64,000 nucleotides of DNA from Nannobrachium achirus (taxonomy: Eukaryota; Chordata; Actinopteri; Myctophiformes; Myctophidae): positions 37,779,820-37,843,819 of the forward strand of contig OY997661.1 of assembly GCA_963921795.1 (NCBI GenBank), given 5' to 3'. Both the position numbers and the translations under genes were made by a program. Under the pieces are notes generated by a model that did not search any database, was not told where the DNA came from, and saw only the letters and a list, made by a program, of their open reading frames with translations. Within the stretch, counting starts at the first letter, position 1. The number at the start of each line of letters is the position of its first letter. Below are positions 507 to 61,629 of the stretch, piece after piece.

Positions 507-3500
507 TTAACATCTGGATCGATCATTTGATTCATTGAGGTGGTAGCTCTTCCTAGACTTCTTCCTGTGCTGGACACCAGATGTGTACTCGTTCTCTGAC
601 GGAAGAGAAGAACTGCGACGTTTTTGGGCCCTGGCAAACGTTTGTTCATCATCCGTCTGTGACTGGGAGAGTGTGGTGAAGCTCTTCCTAGACTTCTTCC
701 TGTGCTGGACACCAGATGTGTACTCGTTCTCTGACGGAGGAGAAGAACTGCAACGTTTTTGGGCCCTGGCAAACGTTTGTTCATCATCCGTCTGTGACTG
801 GGAGAGTGCGGTGAGGGACGTCCTAATCTTTGAGCCACTTCTCTCACCGATTTGCTCAGCACTGAAACCACCTCGTCCAGATTGGGGTGAGGCTGCAGTA
901 AATGGGTAGGACGGTTCGTGGTTATCATCCGTCTGACCGTTGAACATCCTCCTCGCCAGAGAATCCCAGTTCGAGAGCTTGTCTCCCCGTTTGACCGATG
1001 CCATGGTAGTGGCATAGTCTGCCTTCAGGTTCTCCACAGCGAACTGTTCGTCTGGGTTAAAGCTGTTCATCACTGCCACGGCGTCTTTCCATTCCCAGTC
1101 CTCCTCCAGAACACTGTAGTGAGGGTGGTAATCCAGGGGCACCTCATTTGAGGTCAGTGTGATCATGTCTTGGTGGTAAACTGTGCGGGTTTTGCAGAAT
1201 GAGCTTAGGTTGACGATGGGCACACCCATCGAAAATTCGGGTGAGCACACATTGAGTCTGGGACCATGGAAGGTGCCCAGAGTGCCAACAAGAGACTCGT
1301 TGATATGGTCCGCATTATAAGCACGGCTCTCTTCGGGGTTGTGTTTGTGGATCACCCCACCATAGTATATCGGAGCCGAACATTCGTAGAGGTGCTGTGC
1401 CATACCACCGCTCTTCATGAAGTGAATTTCCTTCAGCGTCCTCACCCCCTGTGTCCCTTCTAGGATCATACTCTGAATGGGATCGTCCGTGAAGTCCAGG
1501 GTGAAAAGGAGTTTTGGAGGTGGCGGTGGGGGGACTCCTTCGTTGTCTCCAGTTGCAATTCGGTTGGTGAAGCCCCCGCCGACCTCATGCACATGGTCTC
1601 GGTTGTAAGCCTCAATCATGGCCTTGCCCACCTTGTCCCAGAAGCCCCGGTGGCTCTCTGGAGCATACAGGGCAAGCAGATCGTACACCACTTCAAGGCT
1701 CATGGTAATGGAGGAAATCTTGAACTGGCTCTTGTATGGCATCTTCCTTCTGTACCCGTCATCCTGGTTCTTCTTTTCCTTGACATAGGAGCACAGAGTT
1801 CGCGACCTCATGTCGCCCTTGTGAGTTCGAGGCGGAAAGGCGCACAAGGCACACTGTGCTAGTGTTTCATGGGCCACTGACGCAGCTGGTAGCTCCTCCT
1901 TGGGGAAGTAAATCTGGTTGATACCCGCTACCTGAAAGTCCCCGGACTTGGTTCTTGATGCAACGAGACAGCTCTGCAAGTGTACTTGCTTCAACACATA
2001 GGCCAGAATCTGGCAGGAAAAGTGAGCCTGATTGTCGATGACCCTAGGCAACACATCTGGGAGGCATGCCGCTGAGCACAGCTTGAAGACTGAACAAACC
2101 TCGAGCCAGCACTGTGTGTCTGAGAGCTTGTCAAGGGCAATCATACGTGCCTTCTGTAGTTCTTCAAGGAAACGTGTATCGCTGAACTCCTCGCCAGACC
2201 TTGACATTCCCTCGGTCAACTGTGTCCAGGGAGGCACCCACAGGTCATAGACGAAGTGGCAAGCTAGCTTCATAGCCTCGGCAAACACCATCTGATTGAC
2301 AATGCCTAGCATCCTCTGATTGTCCAAGCCCCGTCTGCCACAATTCAGAATGAACTTTGACCTCATTACGCGTATGCAGCTGGTTCGGGCCTTGTCAAAG
2401 GATTCACTGAATTGTGCCAGGTTTGGGAGGCAGACCATGAGGACGCACTGCACCAGGTTCTGTCTGAATAGGCAGCATGCTGCGATTTGCGCCATTTTTT
2501 CTTGCTCAACTATCGCCGTGATGTCCTGGAAGGACAGTGTTCGCTGTGAGCTGGGCGTGAACTCGGAGAGCATCAAATGGCACCTGTCTAGCCAGGCATT
2601 GCTGGTCTGATCCAGTGAGTTAGTGGTTTGTATAAAGCCACAGTTATGCACCGATATAACTTTGGTGGTCTCTAGGGTCCCCTTAGCCTGGTTTAAGGAC
2701 ACTACATTGCTCTCTAAAACGCTCTCATCGAGCAGGTGCTTGAACACATTGGGGATGTTGCAGGAATCGCGGTCAGCACCTAGCACACTCTTTTCAGTGT
2801 TGTGAGTGTCCTCAATCATGACTGTCCACGAACTACGCATTTTGTGGTATTTGAACGACTGTGGTGTGAAAGATGACAGGGTCTCGATGCAGGTGGGCAC
2901 AAGCTGGAACATGAGAATAAGAAGCTTGTTTATAAATGTCTTACCCTCTCCGGGTGCTGTGAAGTTGAACAGCATGTACCGCTCTATGGTGTAGCGAGGA
3001 GCCGTGTTTGTGATCACATAGTTGAACGTTGCGGAGGCTTGGAAGAGCCGATGGACTTTGAACTTGTCGACAAACAGGTGCGAGACAAGATCCCGATCAT
3101 AGACCTTGAGAGAATTGAAGCTCTGGTCTCCTGTGCCCCGCCTCAAGCCCCCGAAAATCTTTCTGTGTACATTGGGGCATATCTTGCCAAGTGACAGAGC
3201 AGAGTTTTCCTTAGAGCCATTGGTGAGCAAGTTGAGTTGAGCGTACATTTTCTCAACAGGCTCTGGAGCACTGAATCGGCCTTCGGCCAGGCATGTGTAC
3301 ACCATGGTAGCCATGCTCTCAAACAAGGTGGGGCCTCCCAAAAAGCTGTACTTGGTCTTCATCTCTGTGGCAAGGCGTTTTAGCTTTGCCAGATGCGGGA
3401 ACAGTTTCTCAAACACCCCCTCCTCGCGCACCATGTCGAATGGGTGTACATTTGACATATTGTAGACGCAAGCATATGCAGCCAAGCAATCATGGGTTCT

Positions 3501-4718
3501 GCCATGTGAGCAGCCACAGTCTCTGTTGCGGAACATAGCCTGCAAAGCAGCCATCCTGCGGTGCTCACTTGTGTCAGTGATAACCTTGCTCAGTACACCC
3601 AAGGGCAGTGGCACGTGCTTGTGAATCATGATGTCCAAGAAGGCATCGGGCCTTTCCCTGGTGATCAGTGACTCCATAGTGTACTCAAACACTATGAATT
3701 GCTTCACGTCCACATGAGTTGTCACGCCGTTGACCACCAAATCCTTTACCAGTCGTTTGAGACGTTCCATAAACGCTGTGTAAGGCTGTTGTACCTTGAC
3801 AAAGTAGCTCTGACAAAACAAACTTTCACCTGACATGGAGTCAATTAGGCTGGTGAAGAGAGACTTGCCATCACCCGTGAAGTCTAAGTCAATGATTGCT
3901 GACAGGGACTCACGCAGGCCTTCTAGGCTCAGGTCCATGATAGTGGAAGGGATAGCATGGATGCTGCGACCAGGGGCGGAGACTGGCATATACGCGGAGC
4001 CCATGAGCTGCTGGACTTTACTCTTTTGCATGTTTTTCGAAACCAAAGTGTCTGACATGTAATCCAGGCACTCAAACATAGCACTCATCTCGCCCTTCGT
4101 GTCACGCATGTTTATCATGGCGTGGTTGAGTGAAGATACCTTGTGCTTGACAAGGCCCAGCCTCAAGAAAGCATGGAAGGCCTCATCTTGTATCAGCTCT
4201 CCAATAATGTCGCCATTGCATTGTAACATATCAAAGTCAACCGAACCCTGCGTGTGCTGTTCGGCCTGAGACTCCTCTATGTCCTCTGGGTCGTTTAAGT
4301 CATTAGACTTTTCGGATGATTCTTCCTCATTCAGGTCTAAGATGAAGCAGAAAAGTAAGGCCTCTGCAAAGTCTTCCCTGATTGGTGTAGATAGATTGCG
4401 TACCTCCCGGTGCTCCAGAGTGATCTGCAGGACCTTGCCCTTGAAGCAGTAGGTAATGTACAGAAGCAGCTGAAACAATGCTCGGTCCTTGCACCCGAGA
4501 GCTGCAAAGCAGTGTATGTCTAAGTGATTGTTGTACAGAAGGGATTTTTCTACAGCAAGGAACATTACATGCCTTTCTTTGGGCACATACACTTTGGTAT
4601 AAGCAGCAGTGCACTGCTTGCGAGGGGGCGCCTTTGGTCTCGGGCTTTCGCCCTTATAGAGATTGCCTCTAGGCATCAGAAGGACCCTCCTGAAATCCTC
4701 TAATCTCAAACTATCCAT
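507..4718 (-). CDS. Large protein with an SF3-type (possibly primase-helicase) ATPase core; virus-like
   Basis: This is one uninterrupted frame of 1403 residues. I start it at the ATG at 4718 (MDSLRLEDF). An upstream in-frame ATG at 4823 would give 35 more residues, but that stretch overlaps the TATA/GC-box region and looks non-coding. A P-loop TAPGEGKT has its lysine at residue 593. Walker B VMIED (E636, D637) and an SF3 motif C ending TTN (T698-N700) follow at spacings normal for SF3 helicases. The segment DRCHLMLSEF after it could carry the arginine finger. IIDLDF (D277, D279) resembles the metal-binding DxD of archaeo-eukaryotic primases, but this is weak. A proline run (GVPPPPPP) lies in the C-terminal third. 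The tail holds two 45-residue repeats, each ending in a basic RKKSRKS patch likely to be a nuclear signal. The expected role is unwinding, perhaps priming, for the divergent DNA polymerase next door. The motifs are seen; the viral origin is inferred. Confidence 0.7.
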   Translation of the reverse strand: MDSLRLEDFRRVLLMPRGNLYKGESPRPKAPPRKQCTAAYTKVYVPKERHVMFLAVEKSLLYNNHLDIHCFAALGCKDRALFQLLLYITYCFKGKVLQITLEHREVRNLSTPIREDFAEALLFCFILDLNEEESSEKSNDLNDPEDIEESQAEQHTQGSVDFDMLQCNGDIIGELIQDEAFHAFLRLGLVKHKVSSLNHAMINMRDTKGEMSAMFECLDYMSDTLVSKNMQKSKVQQLMGSAYMPVSAPGRSIHAIPSTIMDLSLEGLRESLSAIIDLDFTGDGKSLFTSLIDSMSGESLFCQSYFVKVQQPYTAFMERLKRLVKDLVVNGVTTHVDVKQFIVFEYTMESLITRERPDAFLDIMIHKHVPLPLGVLSKVITDTSEHRRMAALQAMFRNRDCGCSHGRTHDCLAAYACVYNMSNVHPFDMVREEGVFEKLFPHLAKLKRLATEMKTKYSFLGGPTLFESMATMVYTCLAEGRFSAPEPVEKMYAQLNLLTNGSKENSALSLGKICPNVHRKIFGGLRRGTGDQSFNSLKVYDRDLVSHLFVDKFKVHRLFQASATFNYVITNTAPRYTIERYMLFNFTAPGEGKTFINKLLILMFQLVPTCIETLSSFTPQSFKYHKMRSSWTVMIEDTHNTEKSVLGADRDSCNIPNVFKHLLDESVLESNVVSLNQAKGTLETTKVISVHNCGFIQTTNSLDQTSNAWLDRCHLMLSEFTPSSQRTLSFQDITAIVEQEKMAQIAACCLFRQNLVQCVLMVCLPNLAQFSESFDKARTSCIRVMRSKFILNCGRRGLDNQRMLGIVNQMVFAEAMKLACHFVYDLWVPPWTQLTEGMSRSGEEFSDTRFLEELQKARMIALDKLSDTQCWLEVCSVFKLCSAACLPDVLPRVIDNQAHFSCQILAYVLKQVHLQSCLVASRTKSGDFQVAGINQIYFPKEELPAASVAHETLAQCALCAFPPRTHKGDMRSRTLCSYVKEKKNQDDGYRRKMPYKSQFKISSITMSLEVVYDLLALYAPESHRGFWDKVGKAMIEAYNRDHVHEVGGGFTNRIATGDNEGVPPPPPPKLLFTLDFTDDPIQSMILEGTQGVRTLKEIHFMKSGGMAQHLYECSAPIYYGGVIHKHNPEESRAYNADHINESLVGTLGTFHGPRLNVCSPEFSMGVPIVNLSSFCKTRTVYHQDMITLTSNEVPLDYHPHYSVLEEDWEWKDAVAVMNSFNPDEQFAVENLKADYATTMASVKRGDKLSNWDSLARRMFNGQTDDNHEPSYPFTAASPQSGRGGFSAEQIGERSGSKIRTSLTALSQSQTDDEQTFARAQKRCSSSPPSENEYTSGVQHRKKSRKSFTTLSQSQTDDEQTFARAQKRRSSSLPSENEYTSGVQHRKKSRKSYHLNESNDRSRC
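546..815 (-). repeat. In-frame 135-bp tandem repeat in the SF3-helicase gene
   Basis: Two adjacent 135-bp copies (546-680 and 681-815) encode two 45-residue repeats near the C-terminus. Each holds LSQSQTDDEQTFARAQKR, a serine-rich linker and the basic patch RKKSRKS. The copies differ at a few positions (for example KRC/KRR and SSSPP/SSSLP). The repeat keeps the frame and doubles a probable nuclear-localisation signal. Confidence 0.85.
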
Positions 4719-4864
4719 CCCTACCAGACACGTACTGTATATGTACATGTTTTTTTTTTCTTCATTTTTTTGGTGGGCGGAGCCTATTACTGTCCTTGTC
4801 CACCAATATATAGTAGTACACACCCATATATGTTTATGTGTAGCTTTGGAGCATCAACCTCACT
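4719..4864. promoter_or_regulatory. Divergent promoter between the SF3-helicase and DNA-polymerase genes
   Basis: The two large genes point away from each other across about 146 bp. For the plus-strand polymerase gene there is a GC box GGGCGGAGCC at 4775-4784, then CCAATATATAG (CCAAT 4803-4807, TATA-like 4806-4812) about 31 bp later, and the ATG at 4865. That leaves a 5' leader of only a few tens of bases. A T-rich tract (4751-4770) lies on the helicase side. The same GC-box and TATA spacing occurs before the 199-residue gene at 10105. Confidence 0.65.
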
Positions 4865-7800
4865 ATGGATGACCCTTTTCCCTTCATGTCCTATTTCCCA
4901 AACATGTACCCCACACAGCGCATTGTCAACTTGGCTGGAGAGTCAAGCCTTGTTGGCCTGCTCATTAAGTCAGTCATGCATGACCAACAACAGAACAGCC
5001 TGCTGTGCAGGACCCTGACCGTGCAAGGGCCTAGCCACTTTCTGCACCATACCATTACCATGAGGGTTAAGGACATCTCCCCGGTGGTGGGATATGATCT
5101 GGAGCTTGGCGATTCCTCCAGTGAGACTTGGGCGAGAATCAAATCTGAATGGTTGCGGTACATGAATGCTGAGCCTGTAACACTTATGGTGCATCAGGAT
5201 GACATCAAGAGGCCTGTGAAAGCTCAGGTTTTCCCACTTGTATCCGTCAATCACGCAAACAGATACATGAATACTGTGGAGGGGGCACTTAACTTTGGCG
5301 ATTTCAGCGAGAAAGGCGACTACATGAGCCGTGATGGCAATGTACCAGCCCTATGCTCCGGTGTGATGTTTGGACGACTGTACTTCCTCCCAGAATCCAA
5401 AGTTGACTGGCTGTCCAAAAACACTGTGGTTTCTCCCCAGGACCTGATCTATGATCATGGGATTTCGGAGGCCTCAGCCCTAGCCTTCGAAACAAAGCTA
5501 TGCGGTGTGTTTTTCAATGCAGCTTGCCTTAATATAGAGACTGTGTTTGATGAAAAGTACAGGAACTCGCAGACTCGTTGCCAAGGCTTTGCCTCAGAAT
5601 ACCCCCAATGCACCGAAAATAAGGTGGAGACACTCAAAGGCCTCGCACTTGTTCTGGGGTGCGAGCTGGCGGGGAAACTAGCTGATGTGCAAGGACAAGA
5701 AAAGGTGGATATTCCCACCCTCCCTGAAGATGTGGCTGGTCAACAACATGAGATTACATGCATCTCCCTCGTGCTTCTGCGTGGCAACAGACCCAAAGAG
5801 CTGGGCAAACATAGGAAGACCCTGATGGTGTTCTACAACAATGGCAAGGTTGATGGTCCTGAGCTGAATCAGAGCACAGAGGCTGTGCTTACTGTGGGCA
5901 TAGAAGACCCAGGACGGATTCAAAGCATCAAGTGTGATAGTGAGTTTCACCTACTATGTCAGGTGTTGACTGCTCTGACCAGTCAAAATATTGATTTGCT
6001 CTACATGTACAATGCAGGCTTTGACCTGAGAGTGCTGGAGCAGCGCATTTGTTTCTATGAGAGTCGGTGCTGTGAATGTGGTCACTTCAGCGTCACACGC
6101 AAACAGGGTAGTAAGCTGCGTGCCATGTGGGACAAAATGTTTGTTTCTGAGAAGTTCAACAGTAGGTTGAAGCCCACCTTCCAGTTTGAGATGCCTCGCC
6201 TGATCGACATCTACGAATCAATGCTGAAGGAAATGCAAACACAGGGGGTTCATGCATACAAGGGGGCTAAAGAGCGATTCAAGTTGAAAAAGAAACAAAT
6301 AGGCCACTTCAAGATTAATAGCTGTGGCACCAACGTCATTGACCTGTTCAGGATGGCCCAGACTCGTTCAATCAAGTTTGGCTGCCCCAGCATGAAACTC
6401 ACCAAGGTTGTTCCGCACGTGGTAGAGTCTTTGCGATCGAAACGGGGTGAGCCGCACAAGGACCGTAGAAAACTCTACAAAGTCTCGCAGGTGAGTTACT
6501 TGCGCATAGATGAGATGATCAATAACGGCGGCACAGACCTCTTCAAGGTTCTCCTCTACAACCTGGTAGATTCGCAGTTGTGTGCGAGGCTGGCCAAGGT
6601 ACTGGATCCCGTTTCATCTCTGTTCCATCTCTGCCACGCCACACTCAACACAGATGTGATCGTACATGGTCGCTGCAACACGTTTAACGGTTTTGTACAA
6701 AGTATCCATGCAGTGCAAATCCCTCAGCTGAAGTACAAGCTAGATAACCTCAGGTGTGTTGCTGGTCCAAAAGGCCACACGCTGCAGAACAGAGTTCCCT
6801 GGACCATGAAGGTGAGCAATGGATCTTGGCAAGGCGGCTCTGTGAGTGATCCCATGACAGGTCTTCACTACTCAGGGCCTGGAATGGGCCTGGAGCTATC
6901 CTTTGACTTTGCCAGCATGTACCCATCGATCATGCGCACGCTCAACATCTCTTCTGAGTCCACTGTGCCTTGGCCCCCAAAAGAGTTTGACCACGACCTC
7001 TCTGACTGGCTGTGCTACAATTGGGAGGCTGAAGGGTTCGATTGTGCATCTCTGATCATGAAGTATGACAAGATCAGGCGAAGATTTGTTCGTGTTGATG
7101 GTATCATGAATACATCCATGGAGCGTTACTACAATCGCAGAGCCCAGTGCAAGCAGCAGCTGAAAGATCCTGGACTCAGTGAAGTCAAGCGTGCAATCCT
7201 TGAGCTCCAAGTGCTTGAGTGTAAGGTTCTGATGAGCTCCTTCTATGGCACGGCCGGTGCCTGCGGACCTCTCATAGCAGCAGCAGGCAGGCAGCAGATT
7301 GCGGTGGTCAACAAGTGTACCTCGGAATTCTTCCATTCCAAGAGCTCTGTCCTGTACGGGGACACAGACAGTGTCATGATGGTGGTAGGCTACGGTCCCC
7401 AAGACGAACCCGAGCCTGAGCTAGAAGACAGAGTAGATGAACCACAGCTGGGCACAGAGGCCAGTACACTGGCTGTGTTCTCAGCACGTGCACGTGAGGC
7501 CATAACTCAGAAGCTTGCCAGAGCTGAGAGACAGGTGCCCACTTTCCTCAAATTTGTGCATAAAAAGCTAATTGAAGATATGCTCAGTAGGCTTTACCTG
7601 ATAGGGCCCAGGAACTCCACACAGAAAGCCTTCAGGGACCCAAATGGTGGTGAGACTATGGGCTATACCAAGTACATTGTCCGGATGTCTGACGGCTCAG
7701 AGATCAATATCACTGACCCCTTTGTGGAAAACATCAGGATCAACCTGGAGTACAAACACAGTTCCTCAATCATATGTCACCAGAACAAGAAGACATACTT

Positions 7801-9859
7801 GAGTTTGAGTCACACAGTTGACCTAAATACGAGTGAGCTGGAGAACTTGAATGTGAAGGTGAAGGGGATATCTGCATACAAGAGCATGCCCACTGCAGCC
7901 GATGCAGATATGGCTTACACTTTCATCGCATGCGTGATGAGAGGAGACTGCCTTAAACTTGAGTCTGACAGCGTCAACTGCTTCTCCACCATGCCCTGGC
8001 ACCAGTTGAGCATCGGCGACTGCATGCTATTCAATAGGCACAAGATTGAGATAGAGCGTGCCACAGGCCTGTGGCGAGGTTTGGCCCAGGCCAAAATGAC
8101 ACTCACTCGCCACATGGTCGAGCTGGTAAAGGTGGTGGAGCTTGATGCAGGGTTCTCGGCTGCGGCAGTCACACTCAGTGACATCTCCTCGGGCGAGCGA
8201 TTCCAGGTGATGACACTGTACAAGGACAAGCTTTACTGTCTGAACCATCTATTTTCCTCAGCCGAGGCCGTGCGCAGGGACTTGGTTGCAACCCGTGCAG
8301 CTGAACTTGTATCGTCTCGAATGGCCTGTGGCTTCTTCCCATGGAGTGGTTTGCCAAAGTGCAACAACAACACCAATATGAAAAGGGAGGTGCTCAGCAG
8401 GCTAAGGGCTGAGAGATCAAGTGTCAAGACCAGCTATGTGGAGACACTGCTCGCCAGAAAGACCCTCCAAAAAATTACGGGTCTCTCGACCATACCATCC
8501 CTGAGGCCTGGGGATGAAATGGTTGATCCTTGTGAGGCTGTATTCTACAGGTACCCTCTTGACCTGAAAGCTAAGACAGGCTGCCTTGTTTCAATGTTCG
8601 GCAACTGCTTGCTGCCAATGTGTTCGAACCCCGAGGTTAGCCAAGCCAGGGCCGATGATGTTTCAGAAGATCCTAGTAGCAGCAAGATGGCCAAGGGGTC
8701 ATCACATTTGGTTGAACCCGAATACACAGGCCCTAGTAGCAAGAGACTCAGGCTCTCTTCTCCATTTTACCACTCCGATCGAGGAGCACACAGCCACGAG
8801 ACCTTAGTCGAGGTACAAGCTGTAGTGGAGAAAGCAGCCGAAGGCATGCCAGTACCTGAACTGTGTCAGCTCAGCAACAGGTGTTACCCAATTTCCAGGG
8901 TGTCGTTAGCTCGAGATGCAGATACATCCCTGATCAACGGGCACTCAAAGATGACCGCATACTGCATTGTGGACTACTGCCTGCCCCGCTACATGTACAG
9001 CCGGACACGGGTCAAAGAGAGACTGGCCGCATGCAGCAAGCACTTGCTCGAGAGACTAAACATTGCTACAGAGAGGCTTGAACGGGCGGACAAGGCCTTC
9101 CTGACCATCATGAACAACTGTCCACTACATATGATCCCGAGCTGTGTTCGCGAGGAGCTTGAGTCCATCAGTTTGCGAAGGACCACGGTGTGTCGGCTGC
9201 CTATGCATAAGCTGGATCTGCTAACCAAATTGATCATTGAGGATATGGGCCTAAACCCGGAAAAGGTTTACATGTCTGCGATCGCTGCCTTTGGCTCCTC
9301 ACTAACCAAGGCCCTCAATGAGGGCACTGTGACACTCACTGAGGACAGGGCACCTGACAACAAAGGACGCATCTCTGTGAACTTGCCCAGGCAACTGTTG
9401 GACGAAGCTGAGGTTCGCCTGTCCGGTACCTGGATATCGTTGTCAGTGGGCAATTGTGACCAGGGTGAGCTTCTTGACATGGCAGGCAGTCTGTATCAGG
9501 CAATCATGGCAAAACAGGTGTATGAGCCAGTAGCCTTTCCCACAACTGCTGCGAATCTGCCTCACAAAGTTTTGAATATCATGCCGTTCTCCAACAGTGA
9601 ACCACATGCTGTCCACAAATGGCTCATTGCATTTGAAAAGATGGGATGGTCGAGGAAGCCAGATCCTCAAAAGAGTACCGAAATTAAAGCATTGTGCCTC
9701 GCTCAACCCCAGTATCACTGCTTAGGCTGTGAATCATTTTTCAAAAAGCTAGCCACTATGCACATAACAATTTCACAGCTGGAGAAAGTTGTTTACAATG
9801 ATGTGACAAAAAGGAGACAGATTGGCAGGTGCTTGAATGAGATCTCAGGGTTTGGGTAA
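4865..9859 (+). CDS. Family B DNA polymerase, herpesvirus/delta-like, with long C-terminal extension
   Basis: A single frame of 1664 residues without introns. Polymerase motif A is DFASMYPSIM (D681-M690), motif B is KVLMSSFYGTAG (787-798), and motif C is YGDTDSVMM (Y831; catalytic D833 and D835). All catalytic aspartates are present. Upstream, Exo II is NAGFD (N383-D387) and Exo III is YNLVD (Y565-D569). The best Exo I candidate is VDIPT (D282), where the usual D-x-E reads D-I-P, so proofreading may be impaired. DFASMYPS and GDTDS are typical of RNA/DNA-primed family B enzymes and unlike the protein-primed polymerases of Polintons. About 800 residues follow motif C, including a basic SSKRLRLSS patch and a C-terminal HCLGC pair; such length is unusual. 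The role is replicative synthesis for a large DNA virus or virus-derived element, probably in the nucleus. It starts at the first ATG after the TATA-like box. A herpesvirus-like element of the Teratorn type is one possible source, but this is not proven. Confidence 0.85.
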   Translation: MDDPFPFMSYFPNMYPTQRIVNLAGESSLVGLLIKSVMHDQQQNSLLCRTLTVQGPSHFLHHTITMRVKDISPVVGYDLELGDSSSETWARIKSEWLRYMNAEPVTLMVHQDDIKRPVKAQVFPLVSVNHANRYMNTVEGALNFGDFSEKGDYMSRDGNVPALCSGVMFGRLYFLPESKVDWLSKNTVVSPQDLIYDHGISEASALAFETKLCGVFFNAACLNIETVFDEKYRNSQTRCQGFASEYPQCTENKVETLKGLALVLGCELAGKLADVQGQEKVDIPTLPEDVAGQQHEITCISLVLLRGNRPKELGKHRKTLMVFYNNGKVDGPELNQSTEAVLTVGIEDPGRIQSIKCDSEFHLLCQVLTALTSQNIDLLYMYNAGFDLRVLEQRICFYESRCCECGHFSVTRKQGSKLRAMWDKMFVSEKFNSRLKPTFQFEMPRLIDIYESMLKEMQTQGVHAYKGAKERFKLKKKQIGHFKINSCGTNVIDLFRMAQTRSIKFGCPSMKLTKVVPHVVESLRSKRGEPHKDRRKLYKVSQVSYLRIDEMINNGGTDLFKVLLYNLVDSQLCARLAKVLDPVSSLFHLCHATLNTDVIVHGRCNTFNGFVQSIHAVQIPQLKYKLDNLRCVAGPKGHTLQNRVPWTMKVSNGSWQGGSVSDPMTGLHYSGPGMGLELSFDFASMYPSIMRTLNISSESTVPWPPKEFDHDLSDWLCYNWEAEGFDCASLIMKYDKIRRRFVRVDGIMNTSMERYYNRRAQCKQQLKDPGLSEVKRAILELQVLECKVLMSSFYGTAGACGPLIAAAGRQQIAVVNKCTSEFFHSKSSVLYGDTDSVMMVVGYGPQDEPEPELEDRVDEPQLGTEASTLAVFSARAREAITQKLARAERQVPTFLKFVHKKLIEDMLSRLYLIGPRNSTQKAFRDPNGGETMGYTKYIVRMSDGSEINITDPFVENIRINLEYKHSSSIICHQNKKTYLSLSHTVDLNTSELENLNVKVKGISAYKSMPTAADADMAYTFIACVMRGDCLKLESDSVNCFSTMPWHQLSIGDCMLFNRHKIEIERATGLWRGLAQAKMTLTRHMVELVKVVELDAGFSAAAVTLSDISSGERFQVMTLYKDKLYCLNHLFSSAEAVRRDLVATRAAELVSSRMACGFFPWSGLPKCNNNTNMKREVLSRLRAERSSVKTSYVETLLARKTLQKITGLSTIPSLRPGDEMVDPCEAVFYRYPLDLKAKTGCLVSMFGNCLLPMCSNPEVSQARADDVSEDPSSSKMAKGSSHLVEPEYTGPSSKRLRLSSPFYHSDRGAHSHETLVEVQAVVEKAAEGMPVPELCQLSNRCYPISRVSLARDADTSLINGHSKMTAYCIVDYCLPRYMYSRTRVKERLAACSKHLLERLNIATERLERADKAFLTIMNNCPLHMIPSCVREELESISLRRTTVCRLPMHKLDLLTKLIIEDMGLNPEKVYMSAIAAFGSSLTKALNEGTVTLTEDRAPDNKGRISVNLPRQLLDEAEVRLSGTWISLSVGNCDQGELLDMAGSLYQAIMAKQVYEPVAFPTTAANLPHKVLNIMPFSNSEPHAVHKWLIAFEKMGWSRKPDPQKSTEIKALCLAQPQYHCLGCESFFKKLATMHITISQLEKVVYNDVTKRRQIGRCLNEISGFG

Positions 9860-10030
9860 ATGGTAGTCCATCTTCTCTCTAACTAAATGTATTTTTTCTT
9901 TCTACCCTTTTTCTTATTTTATATTTTCTAAGAGTATTTTGTCTGGAATGCAACATTTGATCATTTCTGCCATTTGAGCCATTCTGTATATGTGTCAAAG
10001 ATAGTTAACAACAAAGCCTGTGTTGAAAGT

Positions 10031-10104
10031 GGGCGGAGCCTCGGATTTACCCACTCCGTTCACTATATAAACCGTGAAGGGAGAGCTCTGGTCAATAGGA
10101 CACC
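10031..10104 (+). promoter_or_regulatory. GC-box/TATA promoter of the 199-residue gene
   Basis: GGGCGGAGCC at 10031-10040 is followed 33 bp later (start to start) by TATATAA at 10064-10070. The ATG is at 10105. The GC box is identical to that before the DNA-polymerase gene and the spacing nearly so, which suggests common control of the block. Confidence 0.7.
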
Positions 10105-10704
10105 ATGGAAACTCAAGTACTCTCTGATGCAGGTTACAGGCATTTTGCGGGGAACCTTGCAGTGATTTCTGTACACAGAGGATACCCTGTCAAATTTGCG
10201 GTCATATGTAAGATCTGCATACGTGCCAATGGAGTAACCCTGACTGAACTTGGATGTGAAGGCTCCTGGCCCGAGCTTAATACGTTGGTGGACTATTTGA
10301 GGGCGCGCAAATACAGGGACCTCGTTGATTGCAAGTTGTTTCAAACTGTCGAATCTGAGTGCAGGACTGCGGGGCTGCACGTTTCCTCTGATGACCCCTG
10401 TGAGATACCATATTTCGAACTCTGCGCGAAGCTGAATCAGACACTGAGAATGTCATTTAAAACGGATTGTAATGCTTCCTTTATAAAGTACTCGAAGCCC
10501 CTGATCACAAAACAGAAGGGCAGGGTCTACCGTGCTGTCTCAGGAGTCTTGCTTTGGCTCATAGAGTTTGCTTATGAGCAGTACGCCAGGCAACCATATG
10601 AACCCATCTCAGCCCGCACCAGATCCAAAACGCTCGTTGCTGCAATGCAGGCACTGAAGTTGGACACTGAACCCACATCTGGACACCAGCGTGAAATGAT
10701 GTGA
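10105..10704 (+). CDS. Unknown 199-residue protein of the virus-like block
   Basis: A complete frame begins METQVLSDAGYRHFAGN and ends GHQREMM, with a good start context (caccATGG) just after a TATA box. I do not recognise the family. It has several cysteines (for example VICKICIRANG near residue 35 and further single Cys up to about residue 120), a mid-region rich in charged residues, and a hydrophobic stretch GVLLWLIEFAYEQYA around residues 147-161 that looks like an amphipathic helix rather than a membrane span. There is no signal peptide. It lies 245 bp downstream of the polymerase gene with its own promoter and polyadenylation signal, so it is a separate transcript. Its promoter links it to the polymerase; a role in replication or its control is only a guess from position. 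Confidence 0.65.
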   Translation: METQVLSDAGYRHFAGNLAVISVHRGYPVKFAVICKICIRANGVTLTELGCEGSWPELNTLVDYLRARKYRDLVDCKLFQTVESECRTAGLHVSSDDPCEIPYFELCAKLNQTLRMSFKTDCNASFIKYSKPLITKQKGRVYRAVSGVLLWLIEFAYEQYARQPYEPISARTRSKTLVAAMQALKLDTEPTSGHQREMM

Positions 10705-10812
10705 TGCGGTGAAAGACCCTGACTGAGCGTGTGTCTCATTATGAGTCCCTTGATCGTGCCTCTTTGTCATTCTTTGTATTGCAGACTTTGTTCAAGTTAT
10801 AATTTTGAGCCG

Positions 10813-10822
10813 AATAAATAAA
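10813..10822 (+). terminator. Overlapping polyadenylation signals after the 199-residue gene
   Basis: Two overlapping AATAAA hexamers (10813-10818 and 10817-10822) lie about 110 bp after the stop codon. A GT/T-rich stretch follows at about 10844-10865. This is the expected vertebrate cleavage/polyadenylation layout. Confidence 0.6.
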
Positions 10823-10983
10823 TATCTAACATCATAACACCTTGTGCCTGTTTCTGTTGTTGAGGTGTTCATTTCTCACAAGTAGAGACATTTGACATCA
10901 TCTTAAATGTTCATAACATTCTAATATTGTTTGTGTTTAATATATAATAAAATAAATCTGAAAAGCTGAGGTTTTACAGTCAG

Positions 10984-11042
10984 TACGAGCCAGTAGCCTT
11001 TCCCTCAACTGCTGCGAATCTGCCTCACACAGTTCTGTATAT
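10984..11042 (+). pseudogene. Short duplicated scrap of the DNA-polymerase gene 3' end
   Basis: About 60 bp (GAGCCAGTAGCCTTTCCC, then CTGCTGCGAATCTGCCTCAC) match the polymerase coding sequence around 9524-9580 with only a few changes. The homology stops on both sides. It is a remnant of a second, mostly lost copy or of a local duplication at the right edge of the virus-like block. Confidence 0.75.
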
Positions 11043-11616
11043 TTTAGTGATCTCAGGAACCGGAGGCAGAGACATATTCCACTGTTTAGTGTCACATTTA
11101 TTAGAGGCTCCTTTCAGCAGTATAGTCAACCAAAAAGAAATTCAAATCTAGACTTTTACAACACTGATTTTCAACGCGTGGTGTAGAAGATAAAAACGCC
11201 ACTATTAGGCGACTAATAAACCTCAAAATGCTCAGTGAAACGTTTCACTGATGAAATGCACAAAAAGTGCCAGTGTCCAACAATGAGAAGCAGAGCGTTC
11301 TGTCAGCAAAGCTGGTACTCTTCTGTGTCTATTTAGGCGTTTACAAATAAAGGTTCTCCTGCTTCAAGCCCAGCCCGAGCTCCTCTGCTAACTAAATTGA
11401 CACAATCTTTTGTACAACCTTGTAAAGCAGAACGGCGGTTTGAATAATGGGCTACCTTTCTTTTATTTAGTTACAAAGCTGAACGTTCATACAGGAGTCA
11501 AAAGGCATACTTTATCGGTGGATCTCTCTAGCCTATTAATAAATTTGTAAAGGGTCCAATTGGAACCCCCTCAAAAATGAATACATAACTAATAACACAT
11601 GTTCATCTAGAAAACG
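11043..11616. other. Stretch with no recognisable gene
   Basis: AT-rich DNA without a coding signal, RNA gene or clear repeat. It separates the polymerase scrap from a Helitron-type terminal motif. Confidence 0.5.
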
Positions 11617-12384: not shown

Positions 12385-12463
12385 AATTAGGGTTAGGGTT
12401 TGGGTTAGGGTTAGGGTTAGGGTTAGGGTTAGGGTTAGGGTTTGGGTTAGGGTTAGGGTTAGG
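12385..12463 (+). repeat. Interstitial telomeric repeat block 1
   Basis: About 12 copies of TTAGGG, with occasional TTTGGG variants, inside otherwise unique DNA. All copies are in the same orientation as in block 2 at 13823-13892. Confidence 0.95.
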
Positions 12464-13822: not shown

Positions 13823-13892
13823 CTGGGTTTGGGTTAGGGTTAGGGTTAGGGTTAGGGTTTGGCTTAGGGTTAGGGTTAGGGTTAGGGTTAGG
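13823..13892 (+). repeat. Interstitial telomeric repeat block 2
   Basis: About 10 TTAGGG copies with GTTTGG/GCTTAGG variants. It lies 1.4 kb from block 1 and in the same orientation. Confidence 0.95.
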
Positions 13893-15387: not shown

Positions 15388-16722
15388 GTATGTCTGTTTC
15401 TCTTCTGTTACAAGCTGTCTATTGTTTATTATTATGTTATTTTTACTATTTAAACACTTTCAGCAACCATTTTCAGTTTGCTTATCATTGTCCTACATTG
15501 AAACTTGTTTTATTTCAACTCCAAATTTATATGGGTTTTATTTAAATGTTTACAACCAAAAGTGTTATCTTATTTTGCTGTTATTATTTGATCAACAACA
15601 TGTTAAACAAGGACACTGTACTACTGTCCTCTATGGTGTGAACAATAAACAATTCAGCAGTCATACAAACTCCTGACAACTCATGCAAGATACAGGTTAA
15701 ACAAGACGTGTCATTTCATGATGATGACAATTGGAAGGAACTGGAACACTCTACAATTATAGATACATGATCTTTGTGGGGTTCTCTCTTTTGATTGGAT
15801 AAAAGTACAATATTTTTTCTATTTTCAGTGGAAAATAGCAACTCTAAAAGCTCATAACACGTTGCCAAGAGACATGTTGTGAGCTTGTAGATCAGCTACT
15901 TTCTGTGAAGATATTTAGTTTAGAGTGAAAACGAGTGAGCCTACTATTGAGCCCTTGGGGAATCCCTAGTGATATTATAATATTAAATAATAATAATAAT
16001 AATAATAGGAAGCCTGAATATTCAACTGTTGTTTAACTGTTGTTGTTTTTATTGTGAAAATACACAATCTACAAGCTCACAACGTGTAGCACTATGTTGT
16101 GAGCTTGCAGATACAGTATTTATATGAATTATAGGGCTACAGCTATGGCAGCAGACACATGATACTCTTTAACATTTAAAGGACAACTTTAGTTTTTTTT
16201 TTACAACAAGGGTTCATATTTTAGATTGTAATTAAAGAATATAAAAGATGTGTGTTAAAATTATTTCATTTACTTCTTTCTATTGTTTTAGAGATTCTTA
16301 TTTCAGTGGTTGGGGGCATGTGTACAAGTGGCTAAATATGTCATTTTACACAGAATAAGCCCATTCCCAAGATACAACGCAACCTTTCATGGTTGGATGT
16401 GACTTATGGGGGCTAGAAGTGTTACTGTAAATAGCAATAAAGAAACTGCTGGCTTATTGTGTCTAAAAAGACATATTTAGACAATTGTACGCATGCCCCC
16501 ATGCGTATGCATGCCCCACATTTTAGCACGGTAAACACAATAAAACAATAGAACGAAGTAAATGAAAACACTCACTTTTTCTTTTCTCTAATTACAATCT
16601 AAATTATGAACCCTTGTTGTAAAAAAACGAAGTTGTCCTTTTATTGACCACTTCATCTCATTTGAGAAGCACATTTTCCATAACATGCACTTATTAATGT
16701 CCTCTGTTCTTTTGTCTTTTAG
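15388..16722 (+). other. Intron of the NLRC3-like gene
   Basis: AT-rich intron with GTATGT donor and TTTGTCTTTTAG acceptor. It contains a pair of Helitron-type hairpin ends (15843-16112). Two related segments in opposite orientation, near 16190-16340 and 16545-16640, contain complementary forms of TTACAACAAGGGTTCATA and ACTTCTTTCTATTG/CAATAGAACGAAGT. They look like the two arms of a small inverted-repeat element. Confidence 0.6.
15843..16112. mobile_element. Small non-autonomous Helitron-type element (two hairpin ends)
   Basis: At 15843-15897 CTAAAAGCTCATAACA pairs with TGTTGTGAGCTTGTAG. At 16067-16112 ATCTACAAGCTCACAAC pairs with GTTGTGAGCTTGCAGAT across a 12-base loop. The arms match the asymmetric terminal repeats of the autonomous Helitron at 54-61.6 kb. 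The boundaries are not proven; the two hairpins may instead belong to different insertions. Confidence 0.45.
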
Positions 16723-18475
16723 AAACTCCTGCAGCTCTGTGTCAACAACAACTTAAATCTGTTCTAAGGGAGAAGTTTCAGTATGTGATGGAGTGGATGA
16801 CAAAAGGACAAACACTTCTGAATAACATCTTCACAGAGCTCGACATCACAGAGGGATGGACTGGACAGGTCAATAGGGAACATGAGGTCAGACAGATTGA
16901 AACACCATCCAGAACAGGAGCACCAATCAAATTAGAAGACATGTTTAAACCGTTACCTGGACAACATAAACCAATCAAAACAGTGATGACGAAGGGAGTG
17001 GCTGGCATTGGTAAAACAGTCTTAACTCAGAAGTACACTCTGGACTGGGCAGAAGACAAAGCCAACGAGAATATCCACTTCATCTTTCCATTCACTTTCC
17101 GAGAGCTGAATTTGATAATGAAGGAGAAGAAGGAATACAGCTTGGTGCAACTCATTCATCACTTTTTTGGTGAAACCAAGGAAGCAGGAATCTGCAATTT
17201 CCAAGAGTCTCAAGTTATGTTCATCTTTGATGGTCTGGAGGAGATGAGGTTTCCTTTACACTTTGGGAACAATGAGATTTGGACTGATGAAACAAAGCCA
17301 ACCTCAGTGGACGTGATACTGGCAAACCTCATCAGTGGACACCTGCTCCCCTCTGCTCGCATCTGGATAACCACACGACCTGCTGAAGCCACTCAGATCC
17401 CTAAGAAGTATGTTGACAAGGTGACAGAGGTGAGAGGATTTGCTGACTCCCAGAAAAAAGACTACTTCATGAAGAGATTCAGTAACAACAAAAACCAGGC
17501 CAGTACAATCTACTCGCACATTCAGACATCACGGAGCCTCCACATCATGTGCCACATCCCAGTCTTCTGTTTCATCATTGCTACAGTTCTGGAGGACATG
17601 TTGAAAACAGGGGTGAAAGAAACACTGCCAACGACCCTGACTAATATGTACCTCCAATTCATGTTGGTTCAGTTCAAACATACAAAGGACAAGTATCCTG
17701 ACAGTAGTCCAGCTAAGGTCATTCTGTCTCTGGGAAAACTAGCTTATAAACAACTGAAGAAAGGCAACCTGATCTTCTATGAAGCAGACCTGAAAGAGTG
17801 TGGCATTAATATCAGAGATGCAGCAGTGTACTCAGGAGTATTCACACAGATGTTTCAAGAGGTAAAGGGTGGGTGGGTCAAGGAAGAGGTGTTCTGCTTT
17901 GTCCATCTGAGCATTCAGGAGTTTCTGGCTGCTCTTTATGTCTTCATCAAAACTGGTGTCAACCATCTGTCAGAATCACCAACCACCATTCTGCCTAAAC
18001 CTGGCACGAATAACTTCTACCAGAGTGCTGTAGACAAGGCCTCACAGAGTCCAGATGGACAATGGGACTTGTTCCTCCGTTTCCTGCTGGGCCTCTCAGT
18101 GGAAACCAATCAGACTCCCTTAAAAACACTGTTGGGACAAACCAGACGTATTCCACAGACCACACAGACCAATGAGAAAACAATCTCGTATATCAAGGAG
18201 AAGATCAGGGAGAATCCCTCTCCAGAGAGAAGCATCAATCTGTTCCACTGTCTGAATGAGATGAATGATCATTCTCTAGAGGAAGAAATCCAACAGTACC
18301 TGACCTCAGGAAGATTCTCTGAAGAACAACTCTCTCCTGCTCAGTGGTCAGCTCTGGTCTTCATATTGCTGTCATCAGGGAAGGAGCTGGACGTGTTTGA
18401 CCTGAAGAAATACCAAGCTTCCGAGGAGGCTCTTCTTGGGCTGCTGCCAGTGATCAAAGCCTCCAAAAGAGCTCT
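16723..18475 (+). CDS. FISNA-NACHT exon of an NLRC3-like innate immune receptor
   Basis: One large exon, running from an AG acceptor at 16721-16722 to a GTAAGT donor at 18476. It begins ETPAALCQQQLKSVLREKF, the fish-specific FISNA segment before the NACHT, and continues to LEDMFKPLPGQ. The NACHT P-loop GVAGIGKT is encoded at 16994-17017, the Walker B region IFDGLEEM at about 17222-17245, and a sensor region WITTRPAEATQIP near 17362. The C-terminal part (from about 17700) has the helical NACHT-associated layout with CFVHLSIQEFLAALYVF, then the link to LRR exons. The protein is a cytosolic NTPase receptor thought to regulate inflammatory signalling in fish. Walker B reads DGLEEM where family members usually have DGLDEC. 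The frame is intact, so the exon may be functional. It is partial: only one LRR exon follows. Confidence 0.9.
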
Positions 18476-19010
18476 GTAAGTAAACTGATAACTATAGATT
18501 TAATATAAGGCTGGGACTTTAACTGATTAATTGCCATTAATTAATTACAGAAAATTAACGCGATTAAAAATATTACGCATTTTAATCGCACTTAGTTTTT
18601 GCACCCCAGAACCTTCAGTTTCGGGCATACCGATCACCAACCAAGAAGAGACAACAAATGCAAAGGGAGAAGTAGCCGATCAGAGCGCTTTGCTTGGCCC
18701 AGTGGATGCGAAATTTTGATTTAAAAAACTCACTCGTTGATTCACTCGTACAACAAAATGTGTTTTACTTGAAAAAAATGCCATCAGGTATTATGATTAT
18801 ACTATATATATACTAATAGACACATGAAAACCAGAAAAAGTACAAAACTATGGCACCACCTCTTTAAGTCACATTGAATGTGACTATAACTAGATATGTA
18901 TAACATATTCAGTGTCCGGGCATATCATACTATGCAAACATTCTATGGAAATAGCAGACCTCAGAAGTTTAACATACAGTATATTGATTTTATCTCTGAT
19001 GTTTCTTCAG
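18476..19010 (+). other. Intron between the NACHT and LRR exons
   Basis: A GTAAGT donor and a TTTCTTCAG acceptor bound a 535-bp AT-rich intron. Nothing else is recognisable. Confidence 0.75.
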
Positions 19011-35078: not shown

Positions 35079-35165
35079 AATGACAATATCTAAAGTGTGC
35101 TCGCCTTATAGGCGAGCCCACAATGACAACATCTAAAGTGTGCTCGCCTTATAGGCGAGCCCACA
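35079..35165 (-). repeat. Two tandem 43-bp hairpin repeats
   Basis: Two copies, 43 bp apart, of TGACAAYATCTAAAG followed by GCTCGCCTTATAGGCGAGC and CCACA. On the minus strand each begins TTGTGGGCTCGCC, the complement of the GCGAGCCCACAA block beside the family 1 3' hairpin. They look like repeated Helitron 5' ends. Confidence 0.7.
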
Positions 35166-35166
35166 A

Positions 35167-41231: not shown

Positions 41232-41361
41232 AATGACAATATCTAAAGTGTGCTCGCCTTATAGGCGAGCCCACAATGACAATATCTAAAGTGTGCTCGC
41301 CTTATAGGCGAGCCCACAATGACAACATCTAAAGTGTGCTCGCCTTATAGGCGAGCCCACA
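41232..41361 (-). repeat. Three tandem 43-bp hairpin repeats
   Basis: Copies start at 41234, 41277 and 41320. Each has the TGACAAYATCTAAAG and GCTCGCCTTATAGGCGAGC layout of the pair at 35079-35165, with one copy more. Confidence 0.75.
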
Positions 41362-41362
41362 A

Positions 41363-44430: not shown

Positions 44431-45975
44431 CTAGAAAAATATTGTTCCTTCGAAACAATTGTGGGCTCGCTTCAAGCCAGAAAACAATGGCTATAAAAGC
44501 ACAAAATGTCAAGATCGCAGGCAGTGCTCTCTTTGACGTTACTGACGTCGAGATTGGTCCATTTTGTTCCAAAAATGTGTTATGCAAAAGTTGACCCGCT
44601 GGTGGCGCTATAACAGGCCAATGTGAGAAGGTTGGTATCTGTTCCTTGACCTATTGGGAATGTGCTTGCAAGATTTCACGCACATCCAGGGCTGTGTTCA
44701 TGATTTGAGGTGTTTTTGGCTTTGGACACTTTATCGCTGCTTGCAGCTATATTTATTATTATTATTTTATAATTTGTTTGTGTGCACTTCATAGGCATGT
44801 TAGATAAAGGTCCTTAGATTGCGTGTAGAATGTTTCATGCAAATTGCAAAAAAAAAATCCTAGAATAAAAACGGGTTTAAGCGTTTTACAAACTGCTCAA
44901 AATTATATAGCGCCCCCCTTTGGCCATTTGGGGTAAGATGGGTTTCAGTGATATTTGAACTAACCCTCTACACTATTTTGTCATGAAAATGTGACTTTGC
45001 ATGTATGTTTTAGAGGCAGAAGAATAATTTGCATAAAAATGCAATATTGTTTGAATTATTTAAAAAAGCATGTTTCAATGTTAAAGAAATCCGATCTGAC
45101 AGATCTTTAGATATCGGTCCAAAGTTCACGTAAAAAAAGTTTTGTGCACGTGACGCGAAAATTCCAGAATAAAAGCGGGTTTACGCGTTTTACAAACTGC
45201 TCAAAATGGCGGAAAATTGAAGGGCGGAGCTTACTTAACAACGACACAGATGTCTTCCGCTTGAGTCAAAGCACGCGCGTAACAAGTTGCATGTCTTCAA
45301 ACGAAACGAGTCATGACTTATGCCCGTTTGAAGTTTGAATTTTCAGACGCTTCGTATAGCGCCCCCCTTTGGCCGATTGGAATAAAATTGGTTTCAGTGA
45401 TACTTTGACTAACCCTCCACATCTTTGCCAAATGCCATGAACGTGTAACTTTGCATGTATGATTTAGAGGCCGAAGAATAATTTGCATAAAACCGCAATA
45501 TATATTGAATTATTAAAAAATCATTATTTAACGTACAAACTTCTCACCACATAGCCTGTGTAGATATAGGTTCAAAGTTCATGTGAAAAAAAGTTTTGTG
45601 CACTTGACGCGAAAATCCCAGGAGGAGATAGATTTTTACTGTTTTTCATATAATTCCGAATTGTGGGAGACCTAAAGGTCAGAGGTCAAAAGTTAGGGGT
45701 AAAAGTTGTTCGGCATGAGGAGACGCATAAGTGTATACAGGTTTCATGGCTGTACGTATAACACAGCATGAGCTATACCTGTTCAAAGATCGCACTTTCG
45801 AAGGCTTCCTACAGCGCCACCATTTGGCCGATTGCTATAAAAAATAATAGCACACTTCGCCACTGTAAACTGAACACATTGATGTTTTTATTTTCATTTT
45901 CTCACTAAGTATGTAGGAGTAGAAAGGAACCGAAAATCCCGTCTACTTACTAGATAAACAAATAAATAAATAAAT
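44431..45975 (-). mobile_element. Helitron-like unit 14, subtype B-double-prime
   Basis: Near copy of unit 10 over most of its length. Its CRE-like site is broken (TGACGTCGAGATTGG). The 5' tail is TCCCGTCTACTTACTAG followed by an AAAT run, unlike unit 10. Confidence 0.7.
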
Positions 45976-46067
45976 AATGACAATATCTAAAGTGTGCTCG
46001 CCAGGTACTGGCGAGCCCACAATAATGACAATATCTAAAGTGTGCTCGCCTTATAGGCGAGCCCACA
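45976..46067 (-). repeat. Two tandem hairpin repeats, one variant
   Basis: First copy has GCTCGCCAGGTACTGGCGAGC: the loop is changed but the stem is kept and extended. The second is the standard GCTCGCCTTATAGGCGAGC. The stem is conserved although the sequence between the arms is not. Confidence 0.72.
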
Positions 46068-46068
46068 A

Positions 46069-60100: not shown

Positions 60101-61489
60101 GCATCTCCTAGCCCTATACTTCTTCATGTATTCATTTTTCCTGGCCCTAAAATCTGTATTAATTTTGCTTTGTTTTGCCTCAGGAGTTTGCTGTGAAGCT
60201 TCCTTCCTCTTCTGTTTTCTTCGTCTCTCTTTATTCAATTTGGATGATAGAATGCCTGACTGCAAAGGAGACTTGGAGCTTGAATGTTTAGAGCTCGATG
60301 GTCCAGTGTCACTTTCATCCTCGCTATTCAATTTGGATGATACAATGCCTGACTGCAAAGGAGACTTGGAGCTTGAATGTTTAGAGCTCGATGGTCCAGT
60401 GTCACTTTCATCCTCGCTAGTCAGATGGGGTGATGGAGAATTTGTCTGTTCAAATGTTACAGGCATGAAATCGAACTGCATTCTGTCAATCGCTATGGAA
60501 TGCAAGGATTGATTTAGCTCTTCAATCTTAGCAATCAGATCATCCAAGTGAGTGAAAGTCATCATGACACATTTTCCTCCTCTCCATCGAGGCAAAGGTA
60601 GGCCATCAGCACTTCTGGCATGGGAGTCAAACAGTCCATATCTTCCAGACCTGTCTCTAAAGACAGCAATGGTGTATGGTGATACTGTCAGCAGTGCATA
60701 ATTGACATCTACAGACAGGCACTGAAGTCTATTCTGTAGATTCAACCACCAATTGCGTCGGTGAGTTTCTCCGTCATTTCTCATGTAGCCCATCTCTACA
60801 TTATATTTAGTCACGGAGTACTTCTTGCGTTGTGTTTGAACAGTCAGGGGTATTTCTTCCATACTCAAAAAGTTGGAGTTGAACAGTTTGTCTTTCTTTA
60901 GTTTTGTTATGGTCCTTTTGTACAGCCGGTCTCCCTTGTCCAATATCTTGTCGAGATCATTACGCTTAATGTCACGACCTTCATGTTGGTGTGCCAAAAA
61001 TGTCAGGGCCATGCATGTGCACTGCTTATTCCTTGACATATAGGAAAAGGAAAGATCATTCTGGCTTTTGGATGCCCGCACAGATATCACAGAGGGTGCT
61101 GGGATGTCACTCTGTTGTACAGGGTCATCGTTGGAAAGGTCCATGGCTTCTACAACAGATATCAGCAAGGGTGCTGGGATGTCGGTCTGTTGTACAAGGT
61201 CATCTTTGGAAAGGTCCATGGCTTCCACAACAGATATCACCGAGGGTGCTGGGATGTCGGTCTGTTGTACAGGGTCATTGTTGGAATGGTCCATGGCTTC
61301 CGCACTGCTGTGCGGTTCCTCAACTTCACACTGTGCATGTTGTTGAGACGTTTGTGCCAAATTGTCCATGACCGGGCTAAATATTTGTTTCCCTTCATCA
61401 ACTTCCATGCAGTTGTATTCTGGGGATTTTGAATGTTTGGTGGCCCATCTATTCTTTGCAGCAATAGATCTCTTCTTCCGCTGAGGCAT
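54197..61489 (-). CDS. Helitron Rep-helicase-endonuclease polyprotein with cysteine-protease-like domain
   Basis: A frame of 2430 residues from the ATG at 61489 ([15 protein letters not shown]); the codon at 61504 is TTG, so I do not use it. Order: three 25-residue repeats (about 60-135). A papain-fold deubiquitinase-like domain (OTU or herpes-type C76) has C157 in NKQCTCMAL and D288/H290 in [10 protein letters not shown]. Arg/Lys-rich KTYVNKRF repeats follow (about 475-605), then Cys/His clusters ([19 protein letters not shown]; about 655-730). The Helitron N domain starts near 955. HUH is H1178-F-H1180 and the two-tyrosine site is Y1402/Y1406 (TYMLSYISK). The PIF1-like helicase has GGAGTGKS (K1759), IIIIDEIS (D1846, E1847) and a late [13 protein letters not shown]. 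An APE-type endonuclease closes it (about 2200-2430: [16 protein letters not shown]). Its last motif reads SYHNPV, where such nucleases usually have SDH. It nicks, unwinds and copies DNA for rolling-circle transposition. No stop interrupts it. Confidence 0.93.
59680..60060 (-). repeat. In-frame repeats encoding [18 protein letters not shown]
   Basis: At least six repeats of about 16-19 residues. Two adjacent ones are nearly identical in DNA (TTGTTGACATATGTCTTGTG at about 59814 and 59868, 54 bp apart). The basic, aromatic pattern suggests DNA binding. Confidence 0.85.
60230..60420 (-). repeat. In-frame tandem repeat, [18 protein letters not shown]
   Basis: Two near-identical copies of about 90 bp encode [18 protein letters not shown] and SPLQSGI. 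The coding frame is preserved. Confidence 0.85.
61075..61300 (-). repeat. In-frame 75-bp tandem repeat in the Helitron gene
   Basis: Three copies encode [20 protein letters not shown] with small changes. The period is exactly 75 bp (25 residues). The repeat is acidic and likely unstructured, before the protease-like domain. Confidence 0.85.
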
Positions 61490-61629
61490 GATGTCGCAAT
61501 GCAATGTGATATCTAGCTATGAACTTGTTTACGATTTATTCCAAATCTATCCACACGATTCCACGCGAATGTGCTGTAGAATTATGTATGGGACACTTCC
61601 GGAGAACACGATGCGTCGCAGATGCAACC

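Follow-up and report, generated by a model that had tools for sequence, protein, structure and literature searches.

The window, by which we mean the whole stretch of 64,000 nt of fish DNA analyzed here (positions 1 to 64,000), contains two large divergent open frames near its left end, as a sequence-only reading of this DNA had described. One encodes 1438 aa on the minus strand (507-4823) and is assigned below to Allo56, and the other encodes 1664 aa on the plus strand (4865-9859) and is assigned, from Pfam, relatives, and motifs, to the family B DNA polymerases of the alloherpesvirus/Teratorn type. The minus-strand frame is open from a GTG start given by the mechanical ORF listing, and the Allo56 alignment places the start common to the relatives at Met50 (codon 4674-4676), which gives an intergenic region of 188 bases (4677-4864) between this inferred start and the start of the polymerase. 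Near the C terminus of Allo56 lies an in-frame tandem repeat of 135 nt in two copies that are 98% alike (545-814, minus strand). GC content is 0.50 in both large frames, compared with 0.38 in bases 1-505 and 0.40 between 14 and 64 kb, and no tRNA or Rfam match was found in the 64-kb window. Left of Allo56, an identical 28-base direct repeat occurs at 1-28 and 343-370, 342 bases apart, and could be a host satellite or a viral repeat.

Behind the polymerase lies a frame of 199 aa (10105-10704, plus strand), a lineage-specific gene with one relative, P0056 (246 aa, 57% identity), which has no Pfam match. Because this relative is longer, the copy in the window is shorter at its C terminus; a possible polyadenylation signal, AATAAA, follows at 10813-10818 on the plus strand (sequence match). 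Two exact copies of the 13-mer GTGGGCGGAGCCT are present in the 64 kb, one upstream of the polymerase (4773-4785) and one upstream of the 199-aa frame (10029-10041), beginning 34 and 35 bases, respectively, before TATATA (4807-4812 and 10064-10069); the combined pattern, which was chosen post hoc, appeared in none of 100 shuffles. The polymerase and the 199-aa gene share an exact GC-box/TATA module of promoter-like character (4773-4812 and 10029-10069, both on the plus strand).

The right edge and the flanking fish sequence

The rightmost recognizable viral piece is a 60-nt copy (92%) of polymerase bases 9520-9579, located at 10983-11042 on the plus strand. Queries with relatives of the three genes gave no other viral match in the rest of the window, and no capsid, terminase, protease, helicase, primase, or other core gene was recognized among the scanned frames of the window, the queries including no such proteins. 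The fully intact frames might suggest a misassembly in which DNA of an exogenous virus became attached to that of the fish, a reading that we find barely credible. Both large genes show CpG observed/expected ratios of 0.46 to 0.55 with an excess of TpG/CpA, which fits residence in methylated DNA, although viruses may be CpG-poor and the flanking stretches vary from 0.19 to 0.80. The polymerase fragment, together with the shortening of the small gene, has the look of an old edge.

A perfect 20-base palindrome (11232-11251) lies between this edge and two telomeric arrays, and TTAA sites, which are of little meaning, are present on both sides of the locus. The sequence TTAGGGTTAGGG has 13 matches in the window, all of them in the two arrays, at 12387-12463 and 13825-13892. 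These TTAGGG arrays (77 and 68 bases; 12.8 and 11.3 copies) have the same orientation, lie 1.3 to 2.9 kb past the last viral piece, and enclose a piece that by eye resembles a retrotransposon end and is without a Pfam match. Interstitial TTAGGG arrays are also present in fish without viruses. AciHV-3 and other herpesviruses carry TTAGGG arrays at their ends, according to the accessible part of PMC12031113, and since herpesviruses with telomeric repeats integrate through them, the arrays may be a trace of the insertion route, which we regard as a lead rather than a result.

The description of the surroundings as full of decayed repeats was only partly right. Right of the locus there is an NLR-type exon (16698-18479) with FISNA, NACHT, and NOD2_WH domains, a hAT dimerization domain, and a Helitron frame of 2435 aa that is still open (54197-61504, minus strand; Helitron_like_N, PIF1, and Exo_endo_phos domains). 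Close to its N terminus the Helitron frame also has a match to Herpes_teg_N (E 3e-7). Three short arrays of nearly the same 43- to 48-base unit (AATGACAA.ATCTAAAGTGTGCTCGCC...) are spread over 11 kb, at 35079-35166, 41232-41362, and 45973-46068.

The polymerase and its exonuclease motif

Pfam DNA_pol_B matches the plus-strand frame (E 2.9e-16), with the exonuclease domain as a trace under the cutoff. There was no match to a protein-primed polymerase model, in agreement with the earlier view that this is not a Polinton, and a protein-primed or Polinton origin was rejected. A search with residues 340 to 900, in which 7076 candidates were scored, matched 32 proteins. Of these, 28 belong to one family (E 4e-75 or better), with named members in Channa striata, Collichthys lucidus, Larimichthys crocea, Mugilogobius chulae, and Oryzias latipes; identity with the medaka member, A0A286P9R0, is 49% across the searched residues. 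The other four are remote polymerases (E 8e-5 to 1e-3). Because no exogenous alloherpesvirus polymerase was among the 32 matches, the placing of the window polymerase with herpesviruses rests on medaka and Teratorn, on gene order, and on Allo56. Against viral contigs, the polymerase alignment found 19 distant polymerases (21 to 27% identity), and single proteins (the polymerase, Allo56, and P0056) found no relatives there. The sequence-only reading had called the enzyme herpes/delta-like. It is a family B polymerase, and the wording is loose, because the polymerases of alloherpesviruses and of the Herpesviridae belong to different viral groups (PMC7544198, as far as its accessible text goes).

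That reading had also listed motifs A, B, and C as kept, which holds for the aspartates of A and C. The motif A aspartate (DFASMYPS in the window) and YGDTDS are unbroken in all 26 rows of the polymerase alignment (P0026 to P0032 left out), while the Asn of motif B, present in the 25 other rows, is Ser791 in the window alone, possibly an early sign of decay in that copy. A second change is common to the window and the nearest members of the family. In established polymerase biochemistry, the aspartate of Exo I serves as a metal ligand of proofreading. In the window, Exo I reads N-I-E (Asn, residue 223) instead of D-I-E, and Asn is found in all three rows of the clade formed by the window, P0001, and P0002; Asp is found in 21 of the 23 remaining rows, the exceptions being a gap in P0016 and absence of the motif in P0024. 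Exo III is changed in P0001, P0002, and P0024 and unchanged in the window. Since the metal-ligand Asp is Asn, the polymerase of this clade has probably lost proofreading.

Allo56 and its P-loop

With Allo56 residues 450 to 950 as the query, 23 relatives were found, all at E 1.8e-80 or better, in a search that scored only the 7992 candidates sharing most words. They include proteins from Channa, Mugilogobius, and medaka, the last being A0A286P9Q9 (47% identity), whose accession adjoins that of the medaka polymerase. One annotated member from Channa striata, P0051, is joined to a PYRIN domain (Pfam, E 1.2e-7; 1 of 24 members) in a gene model of 1656 aa, either a fusion or an annotation error. 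Relatives sought with the Allo56 alignment in viral contigs were absent (71 stretches, none a relative). A model of residues 61 to 1058, of low confidence (pLDDT 43.7), was used for a combined sequence-structure search of predicted viral proteins, and 4 of 158 matches reached E 0.001 or better, with E-values that rest largely on the sequence part because of the low confidence of the model. The top match was Allo56 of lake sturgeon herpesvirus (5.6e-19), followed by one protein without a name (3.4e-16), ORF111 of ranid herpesvirus 2 (5.1e-13), and a protein of ranid herpesvirus 4 (2.2e-11); the fifth stood at 0.15. The matches to Allo56 and to the ranid herpesvirus proteins extend across about 1000 columns. 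Because the only viral matches at this threshold were these proteins, we name the minus-strand gene Allo56, an assignment, dependent on the model search, to an alloherpesvirus core gene. Allo56 is among 11 core genes across 40 alloherpesvirus genomes (PMC10410580) and is listed as a core gene of unknown function in 2025 (PMC12567609); the literature searched for allo56 assigns it no function in its accessible parts.

The partner of the polymerase had been proposed to keep the motifs of SF3 helicases. It does show, in an SF3-like order, PGEGK[ST], hhhhED resembling Walker B, and TTN resembling motif C, in a core that spans 2609-2975 on the minus strand (PGEGKT, residues 624 to 629; TVMIED, 667 to 672; FIQTTN, 730 to 735; Arg747 region). 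The initial glycine of the canonical Walker A is absent, and no SF3 match was found in Pfam, NCBIfam, or PDB sequences. The PGEGK loop is invariant in the alignment, and the series of P-loop, hhhh[DE]D 37 residues on, and [ST]N a further 57 to 58 residues on is present in 22 of 24 rows, being broken after its first part in P0053 and P0055. The pattern fitted to Allo56 matches none of nine phage SF3 controls and so is no valid test of SF3 membership. No helicase family appeared in Pfam, NCBIfam, and PHROGs scans of the 24 members, among which there were weak matches to Pfam AAA (two members, best 0.041), Rep_N (one, 0.22), and a PHROG clamp loader (one, 0.27). The structure models (pLDDT 43.7 and 40.0) are unusable for the fold, and searching the PDB for folds similar to the second model (pLDDT 40.0) returned nothing at E 0.001.

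Profile comparison with hhalign, leaving out P0053 to P0055, set Allo56 against nine SF3 domains (P4 alpha, seven phages, and one archaeal virus) and aligned the motifs in register, with a score of 35.6 that was reached by none of 200 column shuffles. With the Walker A left out, the score was reached by 19 of 200 shuffles (residues 636 to 780) and 77 of 200 (650 to 780), so that by this comparison no profile similarity to SF3 domains is seen outside the P-loop, and on the same SF3 profile the Pif1 of the window's Helitron scored 39.0 and T7 gp4 33.2. Because the signal sits in Walker A, these data support Allo56 as a putative P-loop NTPase and make an SF3 helicase a possibility, a label that reflects motif order only. 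In the literature searched, the paper that pairs alloherpesviruses with an SF3 helicase does not mention Allo56 in its accessible text.

These results bear on whether the pair might represent a different class of self-contained replicon, either Polinton-like or new, whose polymerase and SF3 helicase merely resemble herpesvirus genes. Only replication genes are visible, and the P-loop partner has the SF3-like motif order. Nevertheless, for about 1000 columns the partner aligns with Allo56 and proteins of ranid herpesviruses, with nothing else at E 0.001 apart from the one unnamed protein, the genes have the order and sizes seen in alloherpesviruses, and no protein-primed polymerase match was found, which makes such a replicon highly improbable. 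A replicon outside the herpesviruses was rejected on the published gene order (PMC12567609, accessible part) and on the Allo56 and ranid herpesvirus matches.

Lineage, constraint, and relation to known alloherpesviruses

The nearest family of both genes by sequence is Teratorn-like, yet in unrooted quick trees both stand on a long separate stem. In the maximum-likelihood polymerase tree (30 rows, including 26 family rows; P0026 to P0028 left out), the window polymerase, P0001, and P0002 group with support of 100 on a stem of 1.39 changes/site, the remaining inner branches among the family rows being 0.30 or shorter; the clade stands next to P0018 with support of only 87. In the Allo56 tree (21 rows, P0053 to P0055 left out; the tool warns of meeting long branches), the window and P0033 to P0035 likewise have support of 100, and the branch to the rest totals 2.05 (1.43 + 0.62 on either side of the midpoint root), compared with 0.27 or less for other inner branches. 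The window and its closest relatives form, in these trees, a deep, long-stemmed lineage beside or within the Teratorn-like viruses, the outgroup polymerases being too remote for rooting and the support next to P0018 only 87. The long-stemmed clade in both gene trees is new here, and it could coincide with an element listed earlier from 28 teleost species (PMC5822658, Table 1).

Changes private to the window fall preferentially on columns that vary outside the clade. For the polymerase they affect 121 of 1203 varying and 14 of 359 invariant columns (ratio 0.39; Fisher, 7e-5; P0016 and P0025 left out), and for Allo56 63 of 842 and 7 of 352 (ratio 0.27; Fisher, 6e-5; P0051 to P0055 left out). At nonsense-to-missense ratios of 0.048 and 0.051, about 10 stops would be expected with 205 private changes under neutrality, and the frames have none. 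Among the relatives the constraint ratio ranges from 0.26 to 0.80, that of P0033 (0.80) not being significant. As judged from the alignments, the window's own branch shows constraint until recently; because this branch includes time as a virus, it is no proof of host use. Host domestication, in which the virus is gone except for the polymerase, Allo56, and the small gene, kept for a host function such as interference with related viruses, would account for this purifying pattern, for the fully open frames, and for the 53 kb on the right in which no further viral gene was recognized. It nonetheless seems quite unlikely to us, given that the motif B Asn is changed in this copy alone, that the relative of the small gene is longer, and that relatives lie on contigs of many fish with no apparent orthology.

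We favor, with a probability of roughly 0.88, an endogenous alloherpesvirus with kinship to the Teratorn-like viruses of teleosts, of which the locus would be either the right-hand part or an isolated piece. Beyond the observed homology, gene order, motif conservation, and constraint, the most likely scheme is one in which the polymerase would copy viral DNA in the nucleus during viral replication, and Allo56, a putative P-loop NTPase, would probably be expressed with it across the short shared intergenic region and serve the same machinery, for example, in ATP-driven initiation or unwinding. The small lineage-specific gene behind the polymerase carries the same GC-box/TATA module as the polymerase. 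Viral DNA would once have been inserted in the germ line and inherited with the chromosome, and the frames would be open either because the insertion is recent or because the genes were under selection in a propagating element that may still be active. A more far-reaching reading, which we consider doubtful, is that a second deep lineage of endogenous alloherpesviruses exists in fish beside the Teratorn-like one, that it dropped proofreading in its common ancestor while keeping the polymerase and Allo56 intact, and that alloherpesviruses have in common, in Allo56, a replicative helicase or initiator of SF3 type that is made together with the polymerase.

Overall, both the kind of locus and its arrangement are known; its proofreading motif is unusual, and the NTPase nature of its core protein is testable. 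The small number of herpesviruses recorded from germ lines of animals gains a divergent branch. With the Exo I change throughout the clade, nature would offer an example of a lineage of large DNA viruses in which proofreading was probably lost and the genes were kept, and the P-loop gives a direct way to test what Allo56 does, a core gene whose function still stood as unknown in 2025 (PMC12567609, in part).

The sequence-only reading had held that the pair is not the textbook herpesvirus set and is possibly an undescribed replicon, and neither view survives comparison with known systems. Medaka carries this pair too (49% and 47% identity), as does Channa striata, and the medaka records A0A286P9R0 and A0A286P9Q9 are most likely Teratorn, the sequence of which was deposited from medaka as LC199500 (PMC5601938). 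On this point the sequence-only reading is refuted by its own criterion. Elsewhere, colocation of the two genes is judged from labels, namely consecutive Channa locus tags (P0016/P0051 and P0028/P0053) and contigs of equal size (P0001/P0034 and P0003/P0039). As far as the accessible texts go, Teratorn and Teratorn-like viruses are endogenous alloherpesviruses in teleost genomes, possess the two genes under the names “pol” and “ORF56” (PMC5822658), and have genes reported to be intact with dN/dS well below 1 (PMC5601938, PMC5822658, PMC10175614). The window, too, has the polymerase and ORF56 (Allo56). The window clade differs from Teratorn-like viruses in its long stem in both trees and in having Asn for the Exo I Asp, and in comparison with Teratorn no piggyBac match was seen among the window frames scanned (part of the ORFs).

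The polymerase and Allo56 also lie back-to-back on opposite strands in the esocid and white sturgeon herpesviruses EsHV-1 and WSHV-1, as described in the accessible part of PMC12567609, and this published alloherpesvirus order is that of the window. Those are whole exogenous viruses, in which core genes continue beside the pair, whereas the window has host DNA on the right, and the EsHV-1 polymerase has two exons, whereas that of the window is a single frame. AciHV-3, integrated in lake sturgeon, is likewise an alloherpesvirus in a fish genome with TTAGGG arrays near virus-host junctions (PMC12031113, in part). Its arrays stand at the genome ends and measure 1087 to 39,907 bp in full copies, compared with 77 and 68 bases in the window. 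The gene sizes are similar, 4383 and 4863 bp in AciHV-3 and 4317 and 4995 nt in the window; Allo56 of lake sturgeon herpesvirus is given as 3660 bp (PMC9740441, accessible part).
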